Assembly (NCBI GenBank): GCA_004292745.1
Contig: RDXH01000160.1
Coordinates: forward strand, 1-33,129
DNA length: 33,129 nucleotides
From: Oscillatoriales cyanobacterium
Lineage (GTDB): Bacteria > Cyanobacteriota > Cyanobacteriia > Cyanobacteriales > Microcoleaceae
Direction of reading: 5' to 3'
Each line of letters starts with the position of its first letter. Within the stretch, counting starts at the first letter, position 1. The notes under the pieces are model-generated. The model made no database searches. It was given only the letters and a program-made list of their open reading frames with translations, and was not told the origin of the DNA. The position numbers and the translations under genes were made by a program. Positions 815 to 27,961 of this stretch are shown here, in pieces.

Positions 815-865
815 CCAAGGACAAAATTGCGTTGGATTAGCAAGAACAGAATTTATAATTGTTAA

Positions 866-901
866 GTTTCCATTCAATTAGTTTCCCCAGCGAGTGGGCA
901 G
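866..901 (-). CRISPR. Isolated relic CRISPR repeat
   Basis: This 36-base stretch matches the repeat of the neighbouring array at 33 of 36 positions. The differences are at repeat positions 25, 34 and 36, two of them at the terminal GGGGAC end. It lies 373 bases outside the array, beyond the array's left end, with no companion repeat. The decay and position suggest an old leader-distal unit separated from the array, which fits a trailer end on the left. Confidence 0.85.
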
Positions 902-1026
902 ATCTACCTTTTGAGCATTAGCTTGAGTGACTAAATCTCGAAGCACACCCCGGACAAATTTTTGGAGTGGTTTAAGAAGATTTTTTGGCATCTACAGATT
1001 AATCAAAATCAATAATTTACCTTAAT

Positions 1027-1257
1027 TTATCTTGTATGATCCCATACCTTTTTAACCCCATAAGCAGCCAGTCCTGCTACGGCTACAATTCCTGCGGCTG
1101 GTAGTGCAACAGCCGTTGTTGTTGTGAACCCTAAAACACCTAGAATGCCAGGAGCAGTAGTAGTTACTGTAGCCACTGTGACAGAACCTAAACCAGCTAC
1201 TGTTGAGGAAGCAGCCGTAATAGCACCTAAAATTGCAGAATCTTCATGATCTAACAT
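1027..1257 (-). CDS. Small hydrophobic, probably membrane, protein beside CRISPR array
   Basis: A 76-residue protein that I do not recognise. It has a short acidic start (MLDHEDS), then almost entirely Gly/Ala/Val/Thr sequence with two likely membrane helices (about residues 8-42 and 46-70), and a basic end (KKVWDHTR). On the minus strand, a GGGAG Shine-Dalgarno-like stretch sits about ten bases before the ATG, supporting translation. The start is only 17 bases from the left-most repeat of the array, and a relic repeat lies beyond its 3' end. If the array is transcribed leftward, this gene would sit immediately downstream on the same strand. A CRISPR-linked membrane peptide, a bacteriocin-like peptide or an unrelated small gene are all possible. 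Confidence 0.55.
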   Translation of the reverse strand: MLDHEDSAILGAITAASSTVAGLGSVTVATVTTTAPGILGVLGFTTTTAVALPAAGIVAVAGLAAYGVKKVWDHTR

Positions 1258-1274
1258 TAGTTAATTTCTCCCTT

Positions 1275-3050
1275 GTTTCCATTCAATTAGTTTTCCCAAC
1301 GAGTGGGGACAATAGGCGAGTTCGTAGTCCCCCCAACTTTGTTTAAAACGTTTCCATTCAATTAGTTTCCCCAACGAGTGGGGACAAAAACTGGAAAAAG
1401 TGGAAAAATAGCGGTAATACTAGCTTTCTGTTTCCATTCAATTAGTTTCCCCAACGAGTGGGGACATGAAGAAATCAAAAGTCATCTAATGTCTGTCTAT
1501 CCTTTCTACAGTTTCCATTCAATTAGTTTCCCCAACGAGTGGGGACATAACCTAAGTTGTTTTAAAAATGCGATCGCCACTTCGTTTCCATTCAATTAGT
1601 TTCCCCAACGAGTGGGGACTGAAGAAATTGGCGCAAGCCTGAACCAGTTACTTGTTTCCATTCAATTAGTTTCCCCAACGAGTGGGGACAGGTATTAGTT
1701 ATCTTGTGAGCCAAAGACACCTGTAGTGTTTCCATTCAATTAGTTTCCCCAACGAGTGGGGACGCTTTAAAAATTATGGCTGCACCAGTAACGCTAACCG
1801 CATCGTTTCCATTCAATTAGTTTCCCCAACGAGTGGGGACTTGAGTGACAGCAAGTTGCTGATTTAAGGTGTTTGGGGTTTCCATTCAATTAGTTTCCCC
1901 AACGAGTGGGGACGTCTCAACTAGAAGATTTGGGCAAAAAACTAGGTTTCCATTCAATTAGTTTCCCCAACGAGTGGGGACGGTAAATATCAATGCTTCT
2001 CCACAGGCTGCTCTTGCGTTGTTTCCATTCAATTAGTTTCCCCAACGAGTGGGGACGTTTCCCGACGGTCAAATACCCGCTTTCTTTACCGCGTTTCCAT
2101 TCAATTAGTTTCCCCAACGAGTGGGGACTCTTGTTGAATACTATAAACTAGCAGACAAAGACATCCTCTTAAGTTTCCATTCAATTAGTTTCCCCAACGA
2201 GTGGGGACAGAATACAACCAAAAAGAATTGACACTCTCAGGGCGTTTCCATTCAATTAGTTTCCCCAACGAGTGGGGACAACTAAATTAGCATGATCGTG
2301 GACATAACAGTTTCTGAGTTAACAATCGTTTCCATTCAATTAGTTTCCCCAACGAGTGGGGACATGACAGTATGACAGTAAAGGGCAAATAATAGCAGGT
2401 TGTGTTTCCATTCAATTAGTTTCCCCAACGAGTGGGGACAAAACGTATCGAGATCAATTAGAACGTCAGCTAGAGTTTCCATTCAATTAGTTTCCCCAAC
2501 GAGTGGGGACTCTACGACAGGTTTTGACATTGGCAATAGTATTCTAGGTAAATGTTTCCATTCAATTAGTTTCCCCAACGAGTGGGGACACGCAAATGTG
2601 CGCAACACGATTGCGTCAAATAGGAAGTTTCCATTCAATTAGTTTCCCCAACGAGTGGGGACAGCACAGGAAAGAGTGCAAGCATATGAAGATGTACTGT
2701 TTCCATTCAATTAGTTTCCCCAACGAGTGGGGACCCAAGACGTCATGAGCGGTGAGAAGACCTTCTCTATGGCGTTGCTAGGAGTTTCCATTCAATTAGT
2801 TTCCCCAACGAGTGGGGACTTGTACTGCTAGTGCAGCCTCATTGCTAGCTTGGACTCCTGCATTGTTTCCATTCAATTAGTTTCCCCAACGAGTGGGGAC
2901 ACCTATCAGAGGCCCCCTAGCGCCTAGTGACTGGGAAGTTTCCATTCAATTAGTTTCCCCAACGAGTGGGGACCGAATCAAAGGTGGCGAACCCTTTGAG
3001 GCGATCGCATACACGTTTCCATTCAATTAGTTTCCCCAACGAGTGGGGAC
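1275..3050 (-). CRISPR. CRISPR array, 24 repeats and 23 spacers
   Basis: Twenty-four 36-base repeats begin GTTTCCATTC and end GAGTGGGGAC on the plus strand. Every copy from 1350 rightward is identical; only the left-most (1275-1310) differs, by one base. Spacers run 32-49 bases (mean about 40) and all look distinct; the wide length range is typical of type III or I-D arrays. Read on the minus strand, each repeat carries a 5-bp stem (CCCCA/TGGGG) and ends ATGGAAAC, like the 5' tag of type III crRNAs. The decayed left end and a promoter-like site at the right end favour leftward transcription. No cas gene is present in the window, so effector type is inferred only. Spacers 4 (1547-1583) and 23 (2974-3014) each contain a HIP1 octamer. 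Confidence 0.97.
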
Positions 3051-3056
3051 TCACCC

Positions 3057-3087
3057 ATTATACACCCCATACAGCGCAACGTGTCCA
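3057..3087 (-). promoter_or_regulatory. Possible CRISPR leader promoter
   Basis: On the minus strand a perfect TATAAT (3062 down to 3057) stands six bases before the right-most repeat. A TGGACA box (3087 down to 3082, five of six bases of the -35 consensus) lies 19 bases further upstream, slightly longer than ideal. Together they could drive leftward transcription of the array. The region 3051-3305 would then serve both as CRISPR leader and as the divergent trpB upstream region. This is inference from motifs; transcription would start close to the first repeat base, which is unusually tight. Confidence 0.4.
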
Positions 3088-3305: not shown

Positions 3306-4544
3306 GTGACAGTCACACCCCTGCGTCTCACCACCGAAACCACCGCCCAACGCCCCGACTCCCTCGGCAGATTTGGCAAATTCGGCGGCAAATATGTCCC
3401 CGAAACCCTGATGCCGGCTTTATTTGAGCTCGAAGCTGCTTTCCACAAATACCGCAGCGAGCCCGAATTTCAACAGCAACTCCAACAATTACTCAAGGAT
3501 TATGTCGGCCGCCCCAGCCCATTGTATTTCGCCGAACGCCTCACGGAGCATTATGCTAAACCAGACGGGACTGGCGCGCAAATTTACCTCAAACGCGAAG
3601 ATTTAAACCACACTGGTGCTCACAAAATTAACAACGCTTTGGCTCAAGCATTGTTAGCAAAACGCATGGGTAAAAAGCGGGTAATTGCGGAAACGGGAGC
3701 CGGTCAACATGGCGTTGCTACTGCTACAGTTTGCGCTCGTTTCGGTATCGAATGCGTTGTCTACATGGGCGTTCACGACATGGAAAGACAGGCTTTAAAT
3801 GTATTCAGAATGCGCTTGATGGGAGCGGAAGTTCGGGGTGTTTCAGCGGGTACTGGAACTCTTAAAGATGCTACTTCTGAAGCGATTCGCGATTGGGTAA
3901 CAAATGTCGAAACAACTCATTACATTCTCGGTTCCGTAGCGGGGCCCCATCCTTACCCGATGATGGTGCGCGATTTTCATGCAATCATCGGTCAAGAAAC
4001 TCGCAGTCAGTGTCTAGAAAAGTGGGGTGGTTTGCCGGATATTTTATTAGCTTGTGTGGGCGGCGGTTCTAATGCTATGGGTCTTTTCCATGAGTTTGTT
4101 GGGGAAGAAACTGTTCGGTTAATTGGTGTTGAAGCGGCGGGCGAAGGTGTGGATACTGAGAAACACGCTGCTACTTTGACTAAGGGAACTGTGGGTGTTC
4201 TGCACGGGGCGATGAGTTATTTGTTGCAGGATAATGAGGGCCAAGTCATCGAGCCGCATTCGATTAGTGCGGGTTTGGATTATCCTGGTGTGGGGCCGGA
4301 ACATAGTTATTTGAAGGATGTTGGTAGGGCTGAATATTATAGTGTGACTGATGCACAAGCTTTGGATGCTTTTCAACGGCTGTCGCAGTTGGAGGGGATT
4401 ATTCCGGCTTTGGAAACTGCTCATGCGATCGCCTTTTTGGAGACTCTTTGTCCGCAGTTGACAGGTAATCCGCGCATTGTGCTGAACTGTTCTGGACGTG
4501 GTGATAAGGATGTGCAGACTGTGGCGAAGGTTCTGAATATCTAG
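3306..4544 (+). CDS. trpB: Tryptophan synthase beta subunit
   Basis: Catalyses the last step of tryptophan synthesis, condensing indole with serine using pyridoxal phosphate (PLP), normally in an alpha2beta2 complex with TrpA. The 412-residue protein shows the family landmarks: [19 protein letters not shown] at the N-terminus, [14 protein letters not shown] with the PLP-binding lysine at residue 107, the glycine-rich phosphate loop [10 protein letters not shown], and NCSGRGDKD near the end. The frame is open back to ATG 3216, but the extra 30 residues are unconserved, so the GTG encoding MTVTPLRL is preferred. No other trp gene is in view, the usual scattered arrangement in cyanobacteria. Confidence 0.96.
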
Positions 4545-5225: not shown

Positions 5226-5390
5226 ACCCCCCCCTACCCCCCCCAAGGGGGGAAAAGAAGGAAGAAGGAAGAAGGAAGAAGGAAGAAAGTTTTAATTTAA
5301 CTGCAAATGCCCAATGACCAATGCCCAATGCCCCATGCCCCATTCCCAATGCCCCATGCCCAATGCCCAATTACCAATTACCAATTCTCA
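5226..5390. repeat. Composite repeat: C/G palindrome, GGAAGAA tract, CCCAATG heptads
   Basis: Three repeat types fill the gap between two genes: a C-run/G-run palindrome (5226-5252), about five copies of GAAGGAA (5253-5289), and heptads of the type ATGCCCA/ATGCCCC (5306-5377). The ATGs in the heptads open a false N-terminal extension of the next reading frame. Confidence 0.85.
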
Positions 5391-9090: not shown

Positions 9091-11442
9091 ATGACTGCAT
9101 TTTTATTAGAACTAGGTACAGAAGAATTACCCGCCTCCTTCGTCTGCGATAGTACCCAACAATGGCAGCGATTGATACCTGCAACCCTGGCGGAACAATT
9201 CTTGACAAACGACTCAATTAATGTATACGCTACTCCGAGACGTTTGGCTGTTCTCGTAACAGGACTGCCACTTCAACAATTAGACAGAGAAGAAGAGGTA
9301 AAAGGCCCCCCCGCTAGTTCCGCTTTTAAAGATGGGAAACCGACGAAAGCAGCCGAAGGTTTTGCCAAAAAGCAGGGTGTGGAAATAGAGGCTTTGGAAG
9401 TTCGCGCCACAGATAAGGGCGATTTTGTATTTGTCCTTAAAAAAATTCCGGGGCGGAGGACAGCGGATATTTTGGCGGAACTTGTGCCCCTGTGGATTAA
9501 CAAATTGGAAGGTAAAAGATTCATGCGGTGGGCCGACGGAGATTTAAAGTTTCCGCGCCCGATTCGATCGCTAGTAGCGCTACTTGATGATACTGTACTG
9601 CCAATTACATTAGTCAGCGGTTCGGATACAGTCAAGAGCGATCGAATTTCCCAAGGACACCGAGTTTTGTACACCCCCCCTACACCCCCCCTTGCTAAGG
9701 GGGGGACATTGATTCCTACACCCCCCCAGACTCAGGGGGGGACATTGATTCCTACACCCCCCCAGACTCAGGGAGAGACATTGATTCCTACACCCACCCA
9801 GACTCAGGGAGAGACATTGATTCCTACACCCACCCAGACTCAGGGAGAGACATTGATTCTTACTAAGGGGGGGACGGGGGGGGTTTCCATTCCCCAAGCA
9901 GAGGATTATGTCCAGTGTCTGCGCGCAGCTTACGTTGAAGTCAATCGCCAACAGCGCAAAAATCAAATTCAAGCCCAAGTAGAAGCAGCAGCCACAAAAC
10001 AAGGCGGTTACGCAGACATCAGCGATGATTTACTAGAAGAAGTAACCGACTTAGTAGAATGGCCAAACGCCGTAGTCGGCAAATTTGACGACGAATTTTT
10101 GATATTGCCGCCCGAAGTAATCACCACAATTATTGTCACCAACCAACGGTATTTTCCGATTCTCAAAAATCCTCAATACCCCGAACTTCTGCCCTACTTC
10201 ATTACAATTTCCAACGGCGATCCAGCCAAATCAGCCATCATAGCCGCCGGCAACGAGCGAGTAGTGCGCGCCCGATTAGCAGACGGTCAATTTTTCTACA
10301 AAGCAGACTTGGCAAAACCTTTAGAAGATTATTTGCCCAAATTAGAAACAGTCACTTTCCAGGAAGATTTGGGGACTGTACGCGCCAAAGTCGATCGCCT
10401 CTGCAAAATAGCCAATCTCCTGGTCAACCAACTGCAAATCCCTGAGACAGAACAAGCCGATGTCGCCAGAGCAGCCTTACTTTGCAAAGCAGACCTAGTA
10501 ACCCAAATGGTTTACGAACTGCCCGAAATGCAAGGAATCATGGGGCAGAAATACGCCCTAGCCAGCGGCGAATCAGAAGCAGTAGCCACAGCGATTTTTG
10601 AACATTATTTGCCCAAAGGTGCAGGCGACAATTTGCCCCAAACTCTCACAGGTCAAATTGTCGGAATCTCGGACAAACTAGATACATTAGTCAGCATCTT
10701 CGGCTTAGGAATGTTGCCGACAGGTTCCTCCGATCCCTTCGCCTTGCGCCGCGCCGCCAACGCCATAATCAACATTATTTGGGCAGCTCAGTTGCCAGTA
10801 AATTTACACAAATTACTCGCGCAAGTAGTAGCCGAATTTACCGCAATTCGCCCCGAAACCAGCCCTGAATTACTATCACAATTATCAGAATTTTTTATCC
10901 AAAGAATTCGGACTTTACTGGAAGAAGAAAAGAATGTCGATTACGATTTGGTAAATGCAGTTTTGGGAGAAAAAGACCCCGAATATACCGAACGAGCATT
11001 AAGAAATTTGTTAGACACTTTAGAAAGAACACTTTTCTTGCAACAAATCCGCAATGACAACACATTAGATAAAATCTACGAAACAGTGAACCGTTCAACC
11101 CGTTTAGCAGCTCAAGGAGATTTGGATAAAATTGAATTAGAACCGAAAAAAGCAGTGAAACCAGAATTATTTCAAAAATCGTCAGAACAAGCTTTCTACG
11201 ATGCAGTAGTGCAGTTAGTGCCGCAAACCCAGCTATCCAAACAAACCCGCAATTACCAACAATTAGTAGATAGTTTAACTGAAATTGCTCCGACAGTCAG
11301 CAACTTTTTCGACGGACCAGAAAGCGTTTTAGTGATGGATTCTGACCCAGAAATTAAGCGCAATCGGTTGAATTTATTAGGATTGTTGCGGAATCACGCG
11401 CGGGTGCTAGCAGACTTTGGGGCGATCGTCAATCGATCTTAG
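9091..11442 (+). CDS. glyS: Glycyl-tRNA synthetase beta subunit with in-frame repeat insertion
   Basis: Beta chain of the bacterial alpha2beta2 glycyl-tRNA synthetase, which charges tRNA-Gly together with GlyQ. It starts with the family sequence [18 protein letters not shown]. Conserved blocks follow, including [68 protein letters not shown] and [20 protein letters not shown]. At 783 residues it is about 70 longer than usual. The excess is residues 194-264, between SQGHRVL and SIPQAEDYV, where normal members have only a short link. That stretch is low-complexity Pro/Thr/Gln/Gly built from tandem 12-residue units. The frame stays open throughout, so the protein should be functional with a surface loop. 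Confidence 0.96.
9670..9882 (+). repeat. In-frame palindromic repeat insertion in glyS
   Basis: It starts with a C-run/CTTGCTAAG/G-run palindrome of the kind also found outside genes at 4614. Four 36-base units (9706-9741, 9742-9777, 9778-9813, 9814-9849) and a shorter degenerate fifth follow. Each unit encodes TLIPTPxQTQGx. Unit divergence is small: the first two keep CCCCCC where the later two have CCCACC, and only the first ends GGGGGG. This suggests insertion of one palindromic element followed by recent tandem amplification in multiples of three. Confidence 0.9.
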
Positions 11443-25680: not shown

Positions 25681-26406
25681 ATGAATCTTGTTTATCCAGC
25701 TCGTCAAAAAGAACTTGAAAAATTAGTAGAAAAAATAGGAATATCCCAGAAGCATTGTATTAAATGGCATCTAGTAGATTTAGCTTTGACTCATTCGAGT
25801 GCATCAGCTAAAGCAAATTACGAACAGTTAGAATTTGTCGGTGATGCTGTGGTGCGGCTGGCGGCATCGGAATTGTTGTTCGAGATTTATCCTGATTGTC
25901 CAGTCGGGGAATTTGCGGCGATTCGATCGATCTTGGTGAGCGATCGCATTTTGTCAAAAATTGCTGAAAGTTACGGATTCGATCGCTATTTGATTGTTGC
26001 CAGCAGTGCAGCCAGCGACAAAACAGGGGCGGAAAGCCGGCTAGCAGATGCCCTAGAAGCCTTACTGGCTGCCCTTTATTTGAGTACCCATACCTTAGAA
26101 TTAATTCGCCCTTGGTTAGACCTTCACTTTCAACGGCTAGCAACGGAAATCCGCAACGATCCGGCCCGCCAAAACTACAAAGCTGCTCTCCAGGAATTGA
26201 CTCAAGGTAAATACAAAATTTTGCCAAAATATAGTGTCAAAGAAACTGGTACAGTCCAGGGTGGTGAGGATCGTTTTACCGCACAAGTTCGACTTCAGGA
26301 AGAGTTACTAGCCGAGGGCAAAGGTCGATCGATCAAAGCTGCAGAACAAGCTGCGGCTCAGGCTGCTTTTAATAAATTAGTTAGTCAGTTGACAGTTGAC
26401 AGTTGA
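25681..26406 (+). CDS. rnc: Ribonuclease III
   Basis: A 241-residue double-strand-specific endonuclease that processes rRNA and structured RNAs. The catalytic domain carries the signature NYEQLEFVGDAVV (46-58) with its acidic metal ligands and the second acidic cluster LADALEALLAALYL. A double-stranded RNA-binding domain follows from about residue 163 (NYKAALQELTQGKY) to KAAEQAAAQAAFNKL. The last residues, SQLTVDS, are encoded by the first units of a GTTGACAG/GTTGACGG heptad array, so the natural stop has probably been displaced by repeat DNA. The gene sits 112 bases downstream of rnpB on the same strand, linking two RNA-processing genes. The gap has AACTAAC heptads and no gene. Confidence 0.96.
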   Translation: MNLVYPARQKELEKLVEKIGISQKHCIKWHLVDLALTHSSASAKANYEQLEFVGDAVVRLAASELLFEIYPDCPVGEFAAIRSILVSDRILSKIAESYGFDRYLIVASSAASDKTGAESRLADALEALLAALYLSTHTLELIRPWLDLHFQRLATEIRNDPARQNYKAALQELTQGKYKILPKYSVKETGTVQGGEDRFTAQVRLQEELLAEGKGRSIKAAEQAAAQAAFNKLVSQLTVDS

Positions 26407-26456
26407 CGGTTGACGGTTGACGGTTGACGGTTGACGGTTGACGGTTGACGGTTGAT
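26387..26456. repeat. TTGACGG/TTGACAG heptad array at rnc end
   Basis: About nine tandem heptads start inside the last seven codons of rnc and run about 50 bases beyond its stop. Short CTTCCTT units follow at 26611-26648 before the next gene. Confidence 0.88.
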
Positions 26457-26653: not shown

Positions 26654-27961
26654 ATGAAAATCGGAATAGCTGTATTGGGTGCTGGCCGCTGGGGAGTCAA
26701 TCTAATTCGCAACTTTTTAGAACATCCAAACAGCGAAGTTTTAGCGATTGTAGACCAAAATCCTGATTCATTGGCGGCCGTCAAAAAACAGTTTAATCTC
26801 AATGAAAATGTAATTTTAGCTAGTGATTGGGCTCAAGTGCAGGAATTGCCAGGGCTAGAAGCAGTGGCGATCGCCACTCCCGCCTCTACCCACTATACCC
26901 TCACAGCAGCAGCACTCAACAGTGGCTACCACGTTTTGGTAGAAAAACCCCTCGCCCTCAACAGCGGTGAAGCCCTAGAACTCTGCCAATTAGCCGAAAA
27001 ACAGCAGCGCCAACTCTTTGTGGATCACACTTATCTATTTCATCCAGGAGTCGATCGAGGCCAAGCCATTATTCAACAACATCAACTGGGAAATTTGCGC
27101 TACGGTTACGCCCAGCGCACCCATCTCGAACCCGTGCGACACGATGTTGATGCCCTTTGGGATTTAGCCGTTCATGACATTGCTATTTTTAATACCTGGC
27201 TGGCACAAACCCCAATTCAAGTAAGGGCGATGGGTAGTGTATTTCAGAAGGCAACCCCCCCCTCGCCCCCCCCAAGGGGGGAATTTAGAAGGCAATCTCC
27301 CCCAAGACAGGAAGTCAGAAGGCAATCTCTCCCAAGACAGGAAGTCAGAAGGCAACCCCCCCCTAACCCCCCCCTTGGGGGGCAATCTGGGCCTGAGCTT
27401 CCCCTTGGGCAACCCCCCCCTAACCCCCCCCTTGGGGGGCAATCTGGGCCTGAGCTTCCCCTTGGGGGGAAGGAAGAGGAAAAAAGTTCAGTTTCTCCTA
27501 CAATTTTTCCCCAAAATTCTTTAGAAGGACTAGCAGATTTAGTTTGGGTGACACTCACCTACCCAGACGGATTTCAAGCATTCATTCATCTGTGCTGGCT
27601 AAATCCCGACAAACAGCGGCGCTTAACAGTTGTTGGCAGTTTAGGAACTTTGATTTTTGATGAAATGTCGCCAGAAACACCCCTAATTTTACACCGAGGC
27701 AATTCAGATGCTGGGGGTGAAGAAAATAGTTTGGGAAGGGTTCGTGCAGGGGAGCAAACTATCCTTAAAAATCGGGAAATATTGACTTTAGAACCAGTGG
27801 AACCCCTGCGTCAAGTGTGCGATCGCTTTCTCCATTGCGTCCAAACAAATACTCCCTGCCCCACTTCTTCCGGCTCCCAGTCCGTCCAATTAATCCGCAT
27901 TCTTAGCGCTTTGAGCCAATCCCTAGAACTCGACGGACAACCATTAACTATTAGCCCCTAG
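26654..27961 (+). CDS. Gfo/Idh/MocA-family oxidoreductase with in-frame repeat insertion
   Basis: An NAD(P)-dependent dehydrogenase of the Gfo/Idh/MocA family, likely acting on a sugar or nucleotide-sugar; the substrate is unknown. The N-terminal Rossmann fold starts IAVLGAGRWGVNLIRNFL, and the family lysine is in HVLVEKPLAL. The catalytic-domain helix WDLAVHDIAIFNTWL carries the conserved Asp/His pair. From residue 199 to 272, between RAMGSVFQ and KEEEKSSVSPT, the protein has about 74 residues of Pro/Gly/Arg/Gln-rich sequence that do not belong to the family. The fold resumes with ADLVWVTLTYPDGFQAFIHL. Without the insert the length (about 360) is normal. It is probably a surface loop; activity is inferred to persist. 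Confidence 0.88.
   Translation: MKIGIAVLGAGRWGVNLIRNFLEHPNSEVLAIVDQNPDSLAAVKKQFNLNENVILASDWAQVQELPGLEAVAIATPASTHYTLTAAALNSGYHVLVEKPLALNSGEALELCQLAEKQQRQLFVDHTYLFHPGVDRGQAIIQQHQLGNLRYGYAQRTHLEPVRHDVDALWDLAVHDIAIFNTWLAQTPIQVRAMGSVFQKATPPSPPPRGEFRRQSPPRQEVRRQSLPRQEVRRQPPPNPPLGGQSGPELPLGQPPPNPPLGGQSGPELPLGGKEEEKSSVSPTIFPQNSLEGLADLVWVTLTYPDGFQAFIHLCWLNPDKQRRLTVVGSLGTLIFDEMSPETPLILHRGNSDAGGEENSLGRVRAGEQTILKNREILTLEPVEPLRQVCDRFLHCVQTNTPCPTSSGSQSVQLIRILSALSQSLELDGQPLTISP
27248..27469 (+). repeat. In-frame palindromic repeat insertion in oxidoreductase gene
   Basis: Three tiers are visible. A C-run/AAGG/G-run palindrome (27254-27282) comes first. Two 30-base units follow (27287-27316, 27317-27346) encoding RRQSPPRQEV and RRQSLPRQEV. 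Last come two exact 57-base units (27353-27409, 27410-27466) encoding QPPPNPPLGG followed by QSGPELPLG. All unit lengths are multiples of three, so the frame is preserved. Confidence 0.9.

Follow-up and report, generated by a model that had tools for sequence, protein, structure and literature searches.

Small dispersed repeats of cyanobacteria, the SDRs that Elhai and colleagues are said to have described in 2008, are reportedly about 21-27 nt long, dispersed, and often embedded in heptamer arrays. Repeats that come close to the case described here have also been reported elsewhere. The Rickettsia palindromic elements (RPEs; Ogata et al. 2000), as outlined in excerpts from Delihas 2007 (PMC2229807), are elements of 105-146 bp with open frames. 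The GTAG/CGTC REPs are mostly intergenic palindromes, some of which are intragenic, including copies in DNA polymerase I. For the intragenic REPs, Di Nocera et al. 2013 (PMC3733652) argue against a functional constraint, and they locate those in Xanthomonas recB at about one site. Heptameric G-rich repeats of the GGGNATC type from Nostoc and Xanthomonas are treated, with a focus on quadruplexes, by Rehm et al. 2015 (PMC4692102). Among the papers listed by the literature searches, none dealt with coding inserts of the type described below in Microcoleus.

The analysis concerns a stretch of 33,129 nt from an Oscillatoriales cyanobacterium (referred to as the window), in which a gene for an oxidoreductase is interrupted, in frame, by an insert of dispersed repeats. 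The features of this gene and its insert are as follows.

26654..27961, plus strand: Gfo/Idh/MocA-family oxidoreductase gene carrying the insert, 435 aa (PF01408, E 7.9e-25; PF22725, 2.9e-9)
27248..27469, plus strand: in-frame dispersed-repeat insert, 222 nt or 74 codons, residues 199-272
27255..27281, minus strand: copy of the C/G element, its C-rich strand being the sense strand (C8-TCG-C8-AA-G6)
27301..27360, plus strand: pair of 30-nt units that agree at 27 of 30 bases
27351..27407, plus strand: first copy of a 57-nt unit, containing C8-TAA-C8-TT-G6
27408..27464, plus strand: second copy of the 57-nt unit, an exact duplicate of the first
27470..27486, plus strand: purine-rich flank beside the insert, from sequence comparison with the arrays of relatives

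The protein belongs to the Gfo/Idh/MocA family, as it has a Rossmann domain above the Pfam cut-off and the fold of the family (best match 3db2_B, Z 35.2, rmsd 2.2, 317 residues aligned). The initial annotation had described an in-frame insert of 222 nt with C and G runs, about 74 residues and two exact 57-base copies, and both coordinates and frame could be confirmed. Its two 30-base units are also present; units with a spacing of 30 nt begin at 27271, 27301 and 27331, the latter two being the similar pair. We read the purine-rich flank as what may be left of a GGAAGAA heptamer array, similar to the arrays that several relatives have at this site. A role of the insert as an RNA structure was considered and rejected, its transcript being predicted to be no more stable than shuffled sequences (z +1.41).

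Two further repeat arrays were seen in the window. A CGGTTGA heptamer array (26407-26455) directly follows an RNase III-like ORF, which ends at 26406 and the last codons of which apparently derive from the array. A CRISPR-like array (845-3059) contains 25 copies of a direct repeat with the common core GTTTCCATTCAATTAGTTTCCCCAACGAGTGGGGAC, spaced, except for the first, by 68-85 nt.

For comparison, 80 orthologous oxidoreductase loci were fetched, resulting in 81 rows with the window, and 77 full-length proteins (76 orthologues and the window) were aligned, while L050, L076, L085 and L095 were left out as truncated. The segment at the insert position is the only strongly variable one, with 0-109 aa and 36 distinct lengths among the 77 aligned proteins; the next most variable segment spans 0-24 aa with 8 lengths. 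The orthologues have a clear junction at the insert position, and it was such a comparison that the initial annotation had called for. The length of 74 residues is correct for the insert itself, whereas the variable segment as defined by the orthologues is longer (window residues 200-291, 92 aa). These residues are predicted to form a disordered loop that joins two strands: the AlphaFold model has pLDDT values below 50 over most of this region, which sits between the strands at 189-195 and 296-302.

Different repeats occupy this loop in different organisms. According to our reading of the sequences, several Microcoleus strains carry GGAAGAA or AGAAGTC heptamer arrays at the site, Nostoc relatives have GGGAGTA-type heptamers or GAGATGGGG-type units, one Kamptonema has a CCAATTA array, and many Calothrix have 0-3 residues. 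A segment of 10 aa or more is present at this position in 57 loci. In 30 of them, the insert DNA has a stronger tandem character than 99% of windows of equal length from the same gene, and for 21 of the 30 a period of 7, 14 or 21 fits best (the rows are related and not independent). The remaining 27 inserts do not exceed 99% of the control windows in tandemness. Sharing of 14-mers between inserts and gene-flanking DNA (mean 0.05 vs 0.009 in the control) is too weak to serve as a general proof of repeat origin. Given these 27 loci and the low 14-mer sharing, a repeat origin is not established for every orthologue.

The period-7 arrays found at the site in many orthologues raise the question of a contingency locus, where coding heptamer arrays slip and the frame switches the enzyme on and off. 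One natural allele fits this description: in L076 the frame is lost at the array, and the conserved downstream sequence resumes in another frame. However, this is 1 of 80 orthologous loci, a sequencing error in a G run is possible in L076, and the window allele lacks a pure heptamer array. We consider it very unlikely that the loop functions as such a locus.

Two sister strains are informative with respect to the origin of the insert. L031, which is a separate assembly, matches the window in the first unit and at the left junction and then diverges. In L063, a 149-nt MITE-like element, the ends of which match as inverted repeats, is found at the loop site, and both flanks are common with the window. 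The end sequence of this element occurs in 12 distinct contexts within 0.9 Mb of loci from the genome of the window (overlapping loci included). Among the orthologues compared, no clean before/after pair with a target duplication was found. The exact 57-nt duplicate might be taken to indicate an assembly artefact in which repeats were misjoined within the oxidoreductase gene, all the more as repeat-filled loops do break assemblies elsewhere (in 4 of 29 genomes, the two halves of a TrmJ-like gene are on different contigs), but the features shared with L031 and L063 argue against it and make an artefact extremely improbable.

When 115 core contexts were lined up, the C/G element was found to be about 26 nt long with the consensus TTCCCCCC-TT-GGGGGGGG-YR-GGGGGGGG-TT. 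It is a small, dispersed and largely palindromic repeat, in which inverted repeats were detected. The core CCCCCTTGGGGGG has 167 copies (88+79) in the 5.9-Mb genome and the pattern read backwards has 2 (1+1), which shows that the element is more abundant than expected by chance. In the 29 genomes of the genus, including that of the window, the core has 167, 98, 82 and 45 copies in four genomes and 0-8 copies in the other 25; as at least 45 copies are reached in only 4 of 29 genomes, the expansion seems to be recent or patchy. A 10-mer of the GGAAGAA/TTCTTCC array is found within 45 nt of 32 of 85 element clusters, compared to 17 of 1261 noncoding control positions. The backwards control for this pattern was discarded as uninformative because the array is the same when read backwards. 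The window itself provides one instance of this association.

5237..5252, minus strand: intergenic copy of the element core, adjoining a GGAAGAA heptamer array at 5260-5287

The clusters were collected from sampled stretches which together contain about 119 of the genome's 175 exact 12-mers, and all cluster counts refer to that part. Initially there were 88 clusters, from which L138:160, L145:3809 and L189:4785 (10-mer/12-mer matches) were dropped as native sequence. L138:11304, which was first called genic, sits before a likely start and was entered as intergenic. The resulting 85 clusters comprise 68 in intergenic regions, 16 inside the open frame of a gene and one that forms a C-terminal tail. 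With a coding fraction of 0.774, as determined over 395 kb of unselected contigs, about 66 of the 85 would be expected to be genic (binomial 4e-30). Coding sequence extends on both sides of 12 of the 16 genic clusters, and a contig end lies on one side of the other 4. Our method would in most cases have entered a frameshifted genic cluster as intergenic; split genes were not apparent in 20 same-strand, close-flanked intergenic clusters which were inspected by eye, and the other intergenic clusters were judged by coding score alone.

Dispersed palindromic repeats are thus found in frame within conserved genes, since all but one of the 16 genic-cluster proteins (that in L181) have a Pfam match. 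Besides the window gene, the hosts identified by Pfam are DNA polymerase I, a nickel insertion protein, a hybrid histidine kinase, a WD40 protein, a GGDEF/EAL protein, an SNF2 helicase, PHO4 (two clusters), a SpoU methylase (TrmJ-like by reading), a glycosyltransferase, YjeF/Nnr, an HGSNAT-like protein, an FAD oxidoreductase and a radical SAM protein. The two PHO4 clusters are at contig ends and cover complementary parts of the profile (positions 2-161 in L156, 198-350 in L154), so that they probably represent one gene broken by the assembly, which would leave 15 genes and not 16. Both contigs stop within one KQEGTPVGG-type array. Two other observations may be added. In a FAD-binding protein of L132 (near 4004-4019), repeats supply the C-terminal tail and the stop codon. 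In L181, around 5412, a MITE-like element that encodes the peptide motif also seen in L063 adjoins a C/G element and is translated in frame by prediction, in the protein that lacks a Pfam match.

It had been suggested in the initial annotation that selection or structure has fitted this class of elements for read-through as a Pro/Gly-rich linker. In-frame inserts are indeed a phenomenon of the class, as all 16 recognised genic clusters are read through, and frameshifting in most genic copies was not seen among the recognised clusters. Because genic clusters were recognised in part by their open frame, the read-through count alone cannot test the frame. The phase, length and frame counts are based on the ten genic clusters recognised first, with 26 copies, before the list reached 16, and the group of other elements in the phase, length, open-frame and spacing tests held six clusters that were later recognised as genic. 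Phase 1 is used 19 times among the 26 copies, phases 0 and 2 are also found, and both orientations occur in genes, giving the peptides PPLGG, PPWG, PPKGG, PPRG and PQGG. The phase is not quite random (phase 1 in 6 of 9 single-phase genes, p 0.042), but this bias is too weak to prove design. Of the genic elements, 12 of 13 have a length of 2 mod 3, as do 38 of the 70 others. With respect to the six reading frames, five are open in 8 genic elements and all six in 5, while for other elements six are open in 51, five in 15 and four in 4; stops are no more frequent in copies from outside these ten genic clusters than in the genic ones. Distances between copies are divisible by three in 13 of 16 genic cases vs 12 of 25 elsewhere (Fisher 0.05), an excess which can be attributed to selection on the final frame, as this predicts such spacing.

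Taken as a whole, the open in-frame state of the recognised clusters and the weak excess of phase 1 are what a design for read-through could claim. On the other side are the usual unit length of 2 mod 3, the copies outside the counted genes, which are no less stop-free, the use of three phases and both orientations, the small share of genic clusters (16 of 85) and the filling of the same site by unrelated repeats in other lineages. A selected or structured linker seems very improbable to us. A mild bias of the element itself may contribute as an extra factor, and the in-frame state would be what remains once broken alleles have been lost.

Repeat-filled loops were also found in other genes, one of which is in the window.

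9682..9882, plus strand: PPLxKGG-family in-frame insert in the glycyl-tRNA synthetase beta subunit (ORF 9091-11442), residues 198-264

The initial annotation had counted two in-frame cases in 33 kb, of which this is the other one; the insert is real and in frame, but its repeat family is related to that of the oxidoreductase insert and not identical. In GlyS a single repeat family is found at one site; of the 28 aligned rows, 17 have the insert and 11 lack it (two of the rows are from one genome). The repeats in the linker of DNA polymerase I (PolA) differ by genome (25 rows). At a second PolA site (L001 query residues 624-649), there is an in-frame insert ETGFFTESAGHNEVF..KNPVS, which among the aligned rows is restricted to the genome of the window and G001. 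The peptide stretch of this second insert matches many places in the genus genomes that contain stops. The TrmJ-like loop contains, depending on the genome, KKEEGRR, VTDVTDV, SVVSCQLSVVS or PPP(W/R/L)GE types, and the nonamer encoding VTDVTDV is found in 27 of 29 genomes (zero in the control). The PolA and TrmJ-like loops behave like the oxidoreductase loop.

As for known systems, the C/G element resembles the SDRs in size, in its cyanobacterial host and in its heptamer setting, and its dispersal in 167 core copies is also in line with them, a likeness in general features as these are reported for SDRs. As with RPEs, in what the excerpts from Delihas 2007 (PMC2229807) relate, small repeats are tolerated in frame within conserved protein genes and intergenic copies also exist, but the RPEs have 105-146 bp, while the unit here is about 26 nt, is not a multiple of three, and shares one site with different repeats. 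The intragenic REPs, so far as passages of Di Nocera et al. 2013 (PMC3733652) describe them, are similar in that a mostly intergenic palindrome has some copies in genes, DNA polymerase I among them. The element differs from GTAG REPs, since GTAG is found in 24 of 84 elements and is internal, not at the end of the palindrome. Mobilisation by a RAYT was rejected: the core occurs in the fetched flank (mostly 1.5 kb) of 2 of 10 Y1_Tnp loci, both with Y1 matches that are short fragments, and there is no consistent Y1 transposase neighbourhood. Dispersed heptamer arrays that are over-represented in noncoding DNA of cyanobacteria are a common feature with the repeats treated by Rehm et al. 2015 (PMC4692102), but the main companion here is GGAAGAA and not GGGNATC. 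By analogy, the case appears to work like RPEs and intragenic REPs, the agents here being SDR-like elements and heptamer arrays.

We consider it very probable that permissive loops are passively and repeatedly colonised by dispersed repeats, and that purifying selection keeps the frame. As other cyanobacteria fill the same loop with different repeats, in-frame reading most likely reflects the survival of harmless insertions. As the loop connects two strands and can take 0-109 residues, alleles which keep the frame and are free of stops would survive while others are lost; the loop would be surface-exposed and nearly neutral in its effect on the enzyme. In the Microcoleus lineage, a purine heptamer array of the GGAAGAA type may have been the first to occupy the loop. 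C/G elements would then have entered by insertion, and the 57-nt and 30-nt segments would have been duplicated inside the insert thereafter, while in a sister strain a MITE-like element would have entered the same loop. The Pro/Gly-rich peptide would be a by-product of the C/G composition. The mechanism is an ordinary one, tolerated insertion and loss of frameshifted alleles, and it is the site-driven convergence that is unusually clear. A more far-reaching view, which we regard as unlikely, is that permissive loops in conserved proteins of cyanobacteria are recurrent coding safe harbours, where unrelated classes such as heptamer arrays, SDR-like palindromes and MITEs replace one another or nest, and that some of them may be reversible on/off switches of the enzyme, because each 7-nt unit gained or lost shifts the frame.

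These results suggest that filamentous cyanobacteria have repeatedly gained protein sequence from noncoding dispersed repeats, and that the site which is hit, and thus the tolerance of the protein, matters more than the identity of the repeat. An adaptive reading of loop lengths in PolA, the TrmJ-like protein and the oxidoreductase needs a test, and repeat-rich loops have to be reckoned with as they break assemblies and gene models. The choice between a neutral loop and a length switch becomes testable.
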